A stretch of 64,000 bases of DNA. It comes from Pantoea sp. At-9b. GTDB lineage: Bacteria > Pseudomonadota > Gammaproteobacteria > Enterobacterales > Enterobacteriaceae. This document shows positions 21,611-62,077 of this stretch, in pieces. The notes under the pieces were generated by a model that did no database searches, was not told where the DNA came from, and saw nothing but the letters and a program-made list of their open reading frames with translations. The position numbers and the translations under genes were made by a program. The stretch is from assembly GCF_000175935.2 (NCBI RefSeq), contig NC_014840.1:62001-126000 (forward strand). Reading direction: 5' to 3'. Position 1 is the stretch's first letter. Each line of letters starts with the position of its first letter.

Positions 21611-22612
21611 CTAATCGATCTCAACTTTTTCTACAACAAACCCCTCCTGACGAAAAAAGCCTAGCACTCGCTCAATGTTACCTATGCCCCATTGATTAGA
21701 TATTGCTATAACTTCACCTGATTCCAGCTCAATCAGATCGTCGTCATTCATATGGTATCGATTTCTTCTCTCTTCATTGATGAGTTCAGCTAAGGCAATA
21801 GTACGGTTTTTTATGACGCCATTTAATTGTTTTTTTAGCTCGTCAAAGTTGGCTGGTTTATTGTTTTCTATCCAGTCAGTGAAAATCTCTAAAGCAAGGT
21901 TTCTCTTATTTAAGATAAGACCTTTGTATTGATAGTTTGAGTAGTCCTTTTCTGACCTTTTCGCACTGGCAATCTGTTCCGTGCGCTTTTCTCTGAATTT
22001 AACTTGATACTCGTTTAGCTCAGGAACTGGAATGATTTGCTCTGCATTGATTAACGTTTCACCTTTGAAACTATAGGGCGTTATTTTTACACAGCTAATA
22101 TCAACACCTTTATCTCTTAACCAAATCGCCGTGGTTGTCAGTTCCTTACTAAATCCAGCTGATGCTAAAATGATTCTGACATCTTTCCCAAAATTAACTA
22201 AGTCAGTATCCTGAAGCTCAACAAAATCCAATATTTTTTCTTTGGCATCAAGATCAAGATTATTTCTTGAAATATAAGCCTGATAATATTCACAGGCCTT
22301 TGAAAAACTCATCGTAGAGATCATCGCGGCGTACCTTAAGGCCTGGAGTTCCATATGAGCGCCAATTTCGTCACGTTTCAACTCAATTACGACAAGATTT
22401 GCTTGTTTATCAATGGCTAAAATATCAATTCTGCGCCGACTATCTTCCCAATCAGAAAACTCTTCGGCGATCACCAGACAATCAGGTGCCAATATGTCTA
22501 TGTTGTTTTTAATCGCCTCTTGTATATCATAACGCTCTTGTAGTCCTTCATTAGAAAATGTTGTTCTCTGCAGAGGTGTTAAGATTTTATTTGAAATGTT
22601 ATATAAGGCCAT
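21611..22612 (-). CDS. PD-(D/E)XK nuclease-like protein (DUF91/NucS-like fold)
   Basis: 333 residues from the ATG at 22612 (SD AAGGAG). Residues 61-79 show a textbook PD-(D/E)XK core: RRIDILAID with D63, then LVVIELKRDE with E77 and K79. The middle (FGKDVRIILASAGFSKELTT) and the rest look like a complete single-chain protein. The fold is shared by NucS/RecB-type and restriction-like nucleases, so DNA binding or cleavage is likely. No methyltransferase or helicase partner is adjacent. It could be an orphan defence or repair nuclease; function not assigned. Confidence 0.75.
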   Translation of the reverse strand: MALYNISNKILTPLQRTTFSNEGLQERYDIQEAIKNNIDILAPDCLVIAEEFSDWEDSRRRIDILAIDKQANLVVIELKRDEIGAHMELQALRYAAMISTMSFSKACEYYQAYISRNNLDLDAKEKILDFVELQDTDLVNFGKDVRIILASAGFSKELTTTAIWLRDKGVDISCVKITPYSFKGETLINAEQIIPVPELNEYQVKFREKRTEQIASAKRSEKDYSNYQYKGLILNKRNLALEIFTDWIENNKPANFDELKKQLNGVIKNRTIALAELINEERRNRYHMNDDDLIELESGEVIAISNQWGIGNIERVLGFFRQEGFVVEKVEID

Positions 22613-23034
22613 AAAAACTCCTTTTCGAAACCTAATCAAGGATAATTAAATAAAATGTTTAAAGGTCACCAGTACATAATAAAGAATATACCTTTATTGC
22701 ACGTTGGTTACCAATGAGAAATTTAAATCCTCTTAATACCCCAATACATTTGGCAACGTGAGTAAGGTTTAGCATTACCGAACCGTCGCTGATTCTCTTT
22801 TTCACAGGCAATAAATCACCCTTATTCATTTTATACCAGCGCACTGCTCGCTAATTGATGAGATCTCCTTTCCCCCAACCAACGTGCATGAGTCGATTTT
22901 TCTGGCAGCCCATCCCAGGATCGTGAGTCTGGCAATCTTTGTAGTCAGGGTTTCCAGTCACAGGATTGTTTCAAAGGTGCGCATTATGGAGTATCCCATT
23001 GTTTTAATTGATATTAATTGTCTGCCTGGATCTT
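22613..23034. other. Non-coding / uncertain stretch upstream of the recombinase
   Basis: No gene with good support. An open frame on the minus strand, 22659-22829 (MNKGDLLPVKKRISDGSVML...), has no SD and no recognised domain; it may be a remnant. Confidence 0.4.
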
Positions 23035-23068
23035 ATAACCTAATATAATTGTATTTATATTAGGTCAG
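23035..23068. repeat. lox-like recombination site (13-8-13 architecture)
   Basis: Left arm ATAACCTAATATA (23035-23047), spacer ATTGTATT (23048-23055), right arm TATATTAGGTCAG (23056-23068). The inner 10 bp of the arms are perfect inverted repeats. The left arm agrees with the loxP arm ATAACTTCGTATA at 10 of 13 positions, and the 8-bp asymmetric spacer is the same length as in loxP. It lies 196 bp upstream of a Cre-like gene, on the same side as loxP relative to cre in P1. Only one copy was seen. Confidence 0.65.
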
Positions 23069-23263
23069 GACAGCACGATCGAAAGCCTGTATCATAAGGA
23101 TCAGCCTCAGATCCTCGGGTTTAAACGCCCCTGAAGCCAGTAAAGCTAAAAAACGCATAAAAAACAGGCGCTCTTACGTGAATTCTGACGCATTACTCCC
23201 CTGCTCTTTTGTCAGATTTCACGTAGCGCGATCTCATTCTTTACGGACAAAAACTGAACAAAA

Positions 23264-24292
23264 ATGACCGAAATGATCGTGGCCAATCCGCTGCTCGCGC
23301 AATTCAGCGCCTCCGACGATATTTCCGCGAAGCTGGCTTCTTTCGTCCGCGATCGTGAGGCTTTCTCTTCCAACACCTGGCGGCAGTTACTCAGCGTTAT
23401 GCGGATCTGCTGGAGATGGTCTGAAGAAAACCATCGCTCTTTTCTGCCCATGGCTCCTGAAGACCTCAGGGATTATCTGCTGCATTTACAGTGTATCGGA
23501 CGGGCCTCTTCCACCATTTCAACGCATGCCGCACTCATCTCGATGTTACACCGTAACGCCGGGTTGGTGCCGCCGAACGTCTCTCCCGACGTTTTCCGCG
23601 TGGTGAAGAAAATAAATCGTGCTGCGGTGATCGCGGGTGAGCGTACCGGGCAGGCCGTTCCCTTCTGCCGACAGGATCTGAAAAAACTCGATACGGCCTG
23701 GCAAGGTTCACCTCGGTTACAGCAACTGCGCGATCTTGCCTTTATGCACGTGGCTTACAGTACGCTGCTTCGTCTCAGTGAATTATCACGCTTGCGAGTA
23801 CGCGATATTTCCCGCGCTGCGGACGGGCGCATGATTCTGGATGTGGCCTGGACAAAAACCATTGTGCAGTCGGGGGGGATTGTGAAGGCGTTGAGTACCC
23901 AGTCCAGCCAGCGCCTGACCGATTGGATAGTCGCAGCCGGACTGACGGGTGAACCGGATGCCATGATTTTTTGCCCTGTCCACCGTTCTAACCGTATGAC
24001 AAAAAAGATTTTTTCACCGATGAGTACGCCCTGCCTTGAGGACATATTTCTCCGCGCCCGGGAAGCTGCGGGTGTGGCGGCTCTTAGCAGAACCAACAAG
24101 GGACGGTATGCCGGATGGAGTGGTCACAGTGCCCGCGTTGGGGCAGCCCAGGACATGGCAAGAAAGGGATTTTCGGTGGCGCAGATTATGCAGGAAGGCA
24201 CCTGGACCCGGACGGAAACAGTGATGCGCTATATACGCATGGTTGAAGCACATAAAGGGGCGATGATCGGGTTGATGGAGGAAGACGAATGA
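23264..24292 (+). CDS. Cre-like tyrosine recombinase
   Basis: 342 residues, almost the length of P1 Cre (343), collinear with it from FVRDREAFSSNTWRQLLSV near the N-terminus to the end. All catalytic residues align by position: R170 (STLLRLSELSR), K198 (WTKT), H288 and R291 (WSGHSARVGAA), W314 and the nucleophile Y323 (GTWTRTETVMRYIR); in Cre these are R173, K201, H289, R292, W315, Y324. Expected to recombine 34-bp sites by strand exchange; a matching site is at 23035-23068. SD is weak; an alternative ATG is at 23273. Typical roles are plasmid dimer resolution or element integration. Confidence 0.93.
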   Translation: MTEMIVANPLLAQFSASDDISAKLASFVRDREAFSSNTWRQLLSVMRICWRWSEENHRSFLPMAPEDLRDYLLHLQCIGRASSTISTHAALISMLHRNAGLVPPNVSPDVFRVVKKINRAAVIAGERTGQAVPFCRQDLKKLDTAWQGSPRLQQLRDLAFMHVAYSTLLRLSELSRLRVRDISRAADGRMILDVAWTKTIVQSGGIVKALSTQSSQRLTDWIVAAGLTGEPDAMIFCPVHRSNRMTKKIFSPMSTPCLEDIFLRAREAAGVAALSRTNKGRYAGWSGHSARVGAAQDMARKGFSVAQIMQEGTWTRTETVMRYIRMVEAHKGAMIGLMEEDE

Positions 24293-24342: not shown

Positions 24343-24516
24343 GATATGTTTAAAAAAACCATTATTTTAAACATATCGCTCAGACATGTTTATGCTATCG
24401 ACACGTTAAGCCTATATGTCGAAAAAAACGATTTTTTTAAACATGACCACGTGACATGTTTATGGCATCGACATATTATAGCCATATGTCGATAAAAACG
24501 GTTTTTATAAACATAT
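24343..24516. repeat. Cluster of related inverted repeats upstream of fic
   Basis: First, a 13-9-13 inverted repeat (24343-24377) with arms GATATGTTTAAAA/TTTTAAACATATC. Then two 64-bp imperfect direct repeats, 24383-24446 and 24453-24516, 51 of 64 positions identical. Each starts GACATGTTTATG, contains a dyad of the form ATCGACATA...TATGTCGAT, then an A5/T5 palindrome, and ends TAAACAT. In all, six RAYATGTTTA half-sites alternate in orientation. The last copy contains the first bases of the fic start codon. Probably an operator array; not lox-like in sequence. Confidence 0.8.
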
Positions 24517-61509: not shown

Positions 61510-62077
61510 AACCGACAGGAAGCTGGTGGGGAGTGTGTAATGCAGAAAAGTGGTGCGCCAGTTTTTGCTGGTACTGAAACAGCCCCTGCTGCACCTGAAA
61601 AATCACGTCTTTTTTGAGTGTTTCCAGTAAGCGGCTTCGATGGGGTTCCAGACGATAACTCGGATCAAAAAACAACAAATACCCCTCCCACTCCAGCCCT
61701 TCCGGCAGATGTAACGCAGGCAATAATCGTACAGAGAAATTCAGGCCCGCAGCTTGCGGTGCGGTACGAAACCGCTCTGCTGACACCAGCCGACAATGTT
61801 CATAGGGCATGGCGTAATGCGGCAAATTGAAGAGAATATCTTCAGTTTGCGTTGCCATCGTCAATCCACAGACCTTGACGTATATCGGCACAGGCTTTTG
61901 ATGCTGACGACGAAAATCATCATCAAGGCAAAGAACCTCAACGGACGTCACAGCGCTACGACAGCGCCATTGATTCACATAATTCTCCATCAGCGCCAGT
62001 TTTAACTGGCTTACATCGACTCCCTGATACTCAGCAAGTTGGCGAAAGCGCCCTTCAATCCGTTTAGCAGTATTCAC
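61508..62077 (-). CDS. Hypothetical protein
   Basis: 189 residues, GTG start with GGAG 7 bp upstream. Sequence soluble, e.g. RFRQLAEYQGVDVSQLKLAL, then PIYVKVCGLTMATQTEDILF and LEWEGYLLFFDPSYRLEPHR. No motif recognised and no signal peptide. It lies 18 bp after the second Gfo/Idh/MocA gene on the same strand, so it is probably part of that operon. Confidence 0.7.
   Translation of the reverse strand: MNTAKRIEGRFRQLAEYQGVDVSQLKLALMENYVNQWRCRSAVTSVEVLCLDDDFRRQHQKPVPIYVKVCGLTMATQTEDILFNLPHYAMPYEHCRLVSAERFRTAPQAAGLNFSVRLLPALHLPEGLEWEGYLLFFDPSYRLEPHRSRLLETLKKDVIFQVQQGLFQYQQKLAHHFSALHTPHQLPVG

Follow-up and report, generated by a model that had tools for sequence, protein, structure and literature searches.

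A Cre-type recombinase with a lox-like site on a Pantoea plasmid, and a dyad found beside both lox-like and dif sites

The closest described relatives of the system reported here are Cre/loxP of phage P1, in which a 13-8-13 site lies upstream of the recombinase gene, and the Cre-type pairs Dre/rox and Panto/pox (the latter from Pantoea sp. aB; PMC4957104). Cre seems to be under tighter control in vivo than in vitro, leaving open the question of whether elements beyond the core site and a host protein contribute to its control (PMC2409434). The same job is done by XerCD/dif and xrs, which involve other recombinases and a 28-bp site with a 6-bp center (Fournes et al. 2025, PMC11724359), and cer and psi (PepA, ArgR, ArcA) have a cis element adjoining the core site. 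Here, we describe a locus in a 64,000-nucleotide stretch of Pantoea sp. At-9b (the window; positions 62,001 to 126,000 of NC_014840.1, assembly GCF_000175935.2), in which the gene for a Cre-type recombinase is preceded by a lox-like site and a 53-bp dyad (Table 1). The same dyad recurs near dif sites, and we consider it probable that the locus is a dimer-resolution module of a 321-kb plasmid with a composite site made of the lox-like site and the dyad.

The recombinase and its lox-like site

In a phmmer search against the PDB, the recombinase matched P1 Cre (1nzb) at E 2e-82 over query residues 9-340, with 140 of 340 aligned residues the same (41% identity), and the homology was full-length, including the N-terminal domain. 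All seven catalytic residues (R170, E173, K198, H288, R291, W314, Y323) occupied the positions of Cre R173, E176, K201, H289, R292, W315, and Y324, and the set was kept in 65 of 65 loci of the family described below; against the NCBIfam XerC/XerD models, the recombinase scored far below the cut-off. The arms of the 34-bp site (23035-23068) paired at 11 of 13 positions. The first-pass annotation, made from the letters alone, had described a protein aligned with Cre along its whole length, six catalytic residues in place, the P1 order of site and gene, and a 13-8-13 site with perfect inner 10-bp arms, an asymmetric 8-bp spacer, and a left arm matching that of loxP in 10 of 13 bases; each of these points was reproduced, with seven catalytic residues rather than six, and the gap between site and ATG was 195 bp, not 196 bp. 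A search of the 6.3-Mb genome with the inner 10-8-10 pattern, allowing up to three mismatches, found no second copy of the site. A profile of linked sites (the focal one included) scored the focal site at 38.8 bits, whereas the best of 14 other 4-kb pieces, drawn from the window's first 60 kb, reached -11 bits; this difference, together with the recurrence of such sites upstream of homologues, argues that the site is not a chance occurrence.

Table 1. Positions in the window of the recombinase gene, the lox-like site, and the dyad
Feature	Positions	Strand	Basis
Cre-type tyrosine recombinase, 342 aa	23264-24292	+	PF00589; phmmer; catalytic residues
Left 13-bp arm, ATAACCTAATATA	23035-23047	+	loxP of X03453 matched at 10/13
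Asymmetric 8-bp spacer, ATTGTATT (presumed crossover region)	23048-23055	+	position variability across 63 distinct loci
Right 13-bp arm, TATATTAGGTCAG	23056-23068	+	sequence; inverted-repeat pairing
Left dyad half, TTACGTGAATTCTG (consensus CTACGTgAAwTCTG)	23174-23187	+	alignments
Right dyad half, CAGATTTCACGTAG	23213-23226	+	alignments; dyad center 148 bp from site center

The pair belongs to a known kind, in which a relative of Cre is accompanied by a lox-like site of its own. It shares with P1 the full-length homology, the catalytic set, the 13-8-13 site upstream of the gene, and the dyad, which in P1 lies between loxP and cra-cre; it differs in the limited protein identity, in its arm core (ACCTAATATA, against ACTTCGTATA in P1), in residue 259 (P, against R in P1), in having no gene between site and recombinase, and in residing on a plasmid rather than a phage. 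Dre/rox and Panto/pox are similar in that a Cre-type recombinase on Pantoea DNA has a lox-like site near its gene (PMC4957104). The focal protein was 42% identical to Dre and 46-47% identical to the proteins of three loci (L068-L070) with left arms GAAACTTTAAATA, which are probably of the Panto type, judged by the published description of Panto only; the focal arms differed from theirs and from rox. Identity with Panto/pox or Dre/rox was rejected, as L068-L070 and L079 carry the core ACTTTAAATA and D44, whereas the focal locus has ACCTAATATA and Q44. Jelicic et al. reportedly described eight new Cre-type systems in 2023, and the present pair may be among them.

Homologues at E 0.001 were found in 55 of 99 relatives, and the upstream DNA was examined for 61 intact, nearly full-length genes (two from the focal genome itself; G055:C9, with an internal stop, and gene fragments were left out). 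A 13-8-13 inverted repeat, located by a site rule and by eye, lay at -175 to -322 in 60 of these 61. Later counts refer to 65 loci, that is, these 60 plus five named records (P1, D6, an E. coli IncY plasmid, P. vagans pPag2, and Erwinia pyri), and omit L030, L071, L072, L073, and L075, in which no site lies near the gene or the record ends at lox. Because the site rule gave a bonus for a spacer starting with AT and ending with T, the conservation of these three bases is partly selected. Pairing strength alone is no proof for every site, because at least 10 of 13 positions paired in 30 of 325 shuffled 600-bp regions, while 18 of the 65 real sites paired at 10 of 13 or fewer. Conservation is a stronger argument: over 63 distinct loci, the inner arm carried 1.44-1.53 bits, the outer arm 1.05-1.27, and spacer positions 3-7 0.46, against 0.09 in the left flank and 0.25 in the right.

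Recombinases and arms also varied together. Cytosine at position 8 of both arms occurred in 33 of 33 loci with R259 and in none of 32 with P259 (Cre numbering), four of the latter having C8 in one arm only, and residue 259 ranked first for arm position 8 among the columns tested; weaker protein-DNA candidates appeared at arm positions 6, 9, and 10. R259 of Cre is among the residues facing the bases that distinguish loxP from rox and pox (PMC4957104). Protein distance correlated more strongly with arm distance (Mantel r 0.59) than with spacer distance (0.39). Several genomes held two or three Cre-type recombinases, and arms and spacer differed in 18 of 19 co-resident pairs (permutation P 0.012 for the mean arm difference), the sole exception being the duplicated pair L065/L066; such spacer differences should keep co-resident plasmids from fusing. 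Taken together, these comparisons indicate, on sequence grounds, that protein and site belong together.

Flanking DNA was compared in 71 pairs of loci with at least 80% core identity, and homology exceeded 100 bp in the left flank of 17 and in the right flank of 35. Ten flank pairs were picked from these 71 for a close view. In L065/L066, which lie on two contigs of one genome, 60 of 60 bases just right of the site were the same and 21 of 90 to its left; site, leader, and most of the gene showed no difference where aligned, and nothing was shared beyond the gene end. L019/L020 gave 57 of 60 on the right and 26 of 90 on the left. Such a left-flank break could reflect recombination at the site, a cassette ending at the site, or plasmid mosaicism. 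The proposal of the first-pass annotation that this is a Cre relative with its own site is supported, and better than a single locus would permit: 60 of 61 intact homologues have this layout upstream, residue 259 covaries with position 8 of the arms, and in some close pairs the left flank breaks at the site. The pair is not an isolated one, since Pantoea-type plasmids carry dozens of its kind. In the Pantoea-type sites of L040, L050, and their relatives, the left arm is identical to that of loxP, the right arm nearly so, and the spacer is ATTGTTCT; P1 Cre would probably act on sites of this type.

A dyad beside lox-like and dif sites

The most informative feature of the locus, which ties lox-like sites to dif, was missing from the first-pass annotation: a dyad at 23174-23226 composed of two inverted halves of 14-16 bp, with the consensus CTACGTgAAwTCTG-N25-CAGAwTTcACGTAG spanning ~53 bp. 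An nhmmer profile of 36 seeds (four of them gene-less copies, the focal copy not among them) placed it at 23175-23226 with E 1.2e-10. For a second model, R1, the copies used were those adjoining a recombinase gene or the operon that contains it, and association with dif was used in building neither. The exact pattern occurred at 24 places in 17 of 60 genomes, against none for the reversed control, and R1 detected the dyad in 39 of the 60, comprising 35 of the 36 congeneric genomes and, at weak scores, 4 of the 24 others. Among the 65 gene-bearing loci, the dyad lay between site and ATG in 62, P1 included, with its center 106-184 bp (median 137) from the site center and, measured to the aligned start, 46-298 bp upstream. 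In JK004, loxP-like arms and a dyad head a three-gene operon of which cre is the last gene. The arrangement in G023, where the gene at C2:152015 (L030) has neither site nor dyad and a lox-like site with a dyad stands 17 kb off at C2:134857 (L128), indicates that the dyad travels with the site. Further gene-less lox-like sites with a dyad were L100 (G028:C15), L101, L102, L103, L126, L132, L137, and L145; the site of L100 is flanked by two dyads.

The focal genome contained exactly four dyads below E 1e-9, located beside the lox-like sites of contigs C4 (which holds the window) and C5, 577 bp from the dif of the chromosome (C1), and 143 bp from a dif-like site of the 794-kb replicon C2; C3 and C6 yielded no strong dyad. 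Twenty-five gene-less dyads (four from the exact-pattern set, one further, and 20 picked from the R1 list) included nine beside a lox-like site and 10 within ~1 kb of a dif-like site. A broader survey covered 21 genomes chosen for their small number of contigs (G048, which has eight, was omitted inadvertently), using a dyad cut-off of E 0.01, or of E 1 in the focal genome, where the fifth dyad had E 4e-4. It returned 50 dyads, 23 beside cre (one a broken copy). For 17 of the remaining 27, a dif-like site was no more than 1 kb away, where 0.037 such cases would be expected; of the other ten, two stood by gene-less lox-like sites, two had weaker Xer-like sites ~150-170 bp off, two were 2.6 and 5.5 kb from dif, and four had nothing. 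At several chromosomal dif sites (e.g., G003, G016, G032, G042), the model listed no dyad nearby.

Scanning 84,980 species genomes revealed 72 dyad loci in Pantoea, Erwinia, Rahnella, Yersinia, Alteromonas, Pseudomonas, and others. A lox-like site lay no more than 300 bp away in 37 of them (many being Pantoea contigs already counted in the family set), and a dif-like site no more than 2 kb away in 17; beyond 2 kb, there were five Xer-like matches in ~259 kb. The cut-offs of 300 bp, 1 kb, and 2 kb were set after the data had been seen, which would matter little given the size of the effect, and the link between dyad and dif is one of proximity. Dyads near XerCD-type sites occurred in several Pantoea, Erwinia, Winslowiella, Yersinia, Rahnella, and Alteromonas genomes. 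In cross-genus comparisons, dyad and dif were the main shared islands within 1.1 kb amid mostly unrelated surroundings, both islands being seen in several pairs (e.g., Yersinia and Alteromonas indica); a few pairs shared more, such as a Pantoea replicon and Rahnella, which matched at 65% over 209 bp. These results establish, at the level of sequence comparison, that the dyad is associated with both lox-like and dif sites. In the focal genome, a palindrome, GTAGCGGCGCGATTTATCGCGC, adjoins dif on both the chromosome and the 794-kb replicon (L325:5592-5662 and L326:4612-4682) and resembles a repeat of the REP type.

When 96 bp surrounding the P1 dyad were used as a query, 1,630 plasmid records matched, including 926 at 60-80% identity; 894 of the 1,630 were from Klebsiella. 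Ten Klebsiella and E. coli plasmids (L330-L339), picked among the 30 matches listed of the weaker class, carried a GAATAA-N6-TTATTC repeat at a distance of ~130 bp from the dyad. Its inner arms did not vary, and its center came in five versions, one of which is shared by five of the plasmids; the repeat looks like a tyrosine-recombinase core site, possibly an undescribed one. Of the 18 scan loci near neither kind of site, 11 were examined with Pfam through 20 neighboring proteins, which belonged to mixed families and included one tyrosine recombinase: in Buttiauxella (L156:5743-6577), the dyad stands 23 bp upstream of a short XerD-like recombinase gene with many plasmid relatives. A dif search in 17 genomes of these 18 loci (12 with a match) established no proximity of dyad and dif, although one Cedecea dyad may lie ~6 kb from dif.

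Probable dimer resolution and competing explanations

Under the dimer-resolution reading, the recombinase would bind the two 13-bp arms and exchange strands within the 8-bp spacer, and recombination at the site would turn plasmid dimers into monomers, a role that the single site copy in the genome fits; both catalysis and this role are inferred from homology to Cre. The site would be a composite one to which the dyad belongs. The presence of the dyad beside both P1 loxP and XerCD dif makes a chromosomally encoded protein its probable ligand, one that would act on dimer-resolution sites whatever recombinase serves them. We infer that this protein regulates or places resolution; once bound, it might favor resolution over dimer formation or tie the site to the division septum or the terminus. 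On a wider scale, the dyad could be an undescribed, widespread gammaproteobacterial cis element with one chromosome-encoded reader protein, common to unrelated recombinases (XerCD, Cre-type, and probably others), a generalization for and against which the odds appear to us evenly balanced. The literature surveyed, mostly titles and the beginnings of abstracts, contained no mention of a dyad as a cis element shared by lox and dif, leaving its novelty unproven, and the part of the xrs study available defines accessory sequences by ArgR/ArcA boxes with the dyad unmentioned (PMC11724359).

Several observations weigh against this interpretation. The 34-bp core suffices for Cre in vitro (PMC2409434), the model found no full dyad in D6, the IncY plasmid (L074), or L048, and the Duffyella locus L075 has neither site nor dyad near its gene. 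Six of the 25 gene-less dyads and 18 of the 72 scan loci (five in Pseudomonas) lie near neither a lox-like nor a dif-like site, and P1 lives in E. coli, whose K-12 dif has no dyad within ~10 kb (22 kb examined). The 321-kb replicon itself has a dif-like site (C4:12388, one mismatch) without a dyad, so that Cre is possibly redundant there. The match of R259 with C8 needs only two changes on the tree, and independent R259 events are therefore few; G054:C3 carries two recombinases on one contig; and the flank comparisons include pairs in which the break falls ~90 bp farther left (L031/L032 and L017/L022, with 41 and 42 of 90) or both flanks are kept (L048/L056, L037/L044, and others).

A different and, in our view, unlikely explanation is that the dyad is an operator or leader element, acting as DNA or as an RNA hairpin, that controls cre, its proximity to dif having another cause. 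As expected of an operator, the left dyad half in P1 covers the annotated -10 box of the promoter P3cre; the position of the dyad relative to the start is also in keeping with this, as is the enrichment of GATC between site and ATG (162 against 72 expected over the 65 loci together; 22995-23263 at the focal locus), since the P1 cre region likewise has annotated Dam sites. Folded as RNA, six of six copies formed a hairpin (z -1.7 to -11.5). However, the stretches examined around chromosomal-dif dyads have no Cre-type gene, the dyad of G023 stays with its site 17 kb from the gene, and nine gene-less lox-like sites retain the dyad. Moreover, the arms were conserved in sequence with little covariation (0.068, slightly above a shuffled mean of 0.060, with 25 of 500 shuffles as high), a combination that would favor a DNA over an RNA element; the two most variable pairs were unpaired in 13 and 19 of 34, and an Rfam search of the dyad gave seven matches at E 0.1, all to microRNA families and below gathering scores.

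Somewhat less likely again is that the recombinase is an integrase moving plasmids or cassettes into lox-like sites of other replicons. Some genomes have gene-less lox-like sites on other contigs, which would suit such an activity, as would pairs, even within one genome, whose flanks show no relation until the site is reached; but the focal genome has a single site copy, the spacers that differ in 18 of 19 co-resident pairs should block cross-recombination, and the dyad is shared with dif, itself a dimer-resolution site. That the dyad might be a PepA/ArgR binding site, a cer-type accessory sequence, was suggested by its distance from lox, which resembles that of the accessory sequence in cer. 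The carAB control region, ColE1, and pSC101 gave no significant dyad match (best 4.4 bits), and a published in vitro test found PepA/ArgR inactive at P1 loxP (PMC2409434), and this candidate was accordingly rejected as very improbable; the gSELEX study, in the part available, offered no usable PepA motif for comparison (PMC8249747).

If the dyad does belong to a composite resolution site, natural loxP would be longer than the 34 bp of laboratory use and regulated by the host, which bears on the question of how Cre is regulated in the cell (PMC2409434). The dyad could then locate unrecognized resolution sites, of which the GAATAA-N6-TTATTC repeat may be an example, and would link dimer resolution in phage, plasmid, chromid, and chromosome in one hypothesis. 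The recombinase-site pairs, for their part, form a natural panel of Cre variants with likely targets, useful for a protein-DNA code, and are possible orthogonal recombination tools.

The replicon and neighboring features

The genome consists of six contigs, and a Rep3-type replication gene scored above the family cut-off in all five smaller ones, on which basis the 321-kb contig C4 is taken to be a plasmid; locus DNA matched five plasmid records, all from Pantoea. Among 15 tyrosine recombinase matches in the genome, those of C4 and C5 were the only Cre relatives at E 0.001. Replicons larger than ~250 kb carry a Xer site, a finding that C4 with its dif-like site fits, and the tyrosine recombinase of R27 is a second system, according to Fournes et al. 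2025 (PMC11724359); by analogy, Cre on C4 may be a second resolution system. Over the 80 kb compared with the closest relative (G029), the right side was colinear in blocks, and the left side gave no match over 150 bp. The GC-skew signal was too weak to be of use in detecting a switch at the lox-like site.

The 321-kb plasmid holds two Rep3-type genes (G000:C4:211845 and 221158), perhaps from an old fusion. Between the recombinase gene and a SoFic-like fic gene, three AT-rich, partly palindromic repeats (ATATGTygAAAAAAC...AAACATat) are spaced 70 bp apart at 24344-24516 and look like operators of fic. On the other side of the site, the minus strand at 21611-22639 encodes a 342-aa protein that has no Pfam match and, in NCBIfam, a weak similarity to the endonuclease NucS.
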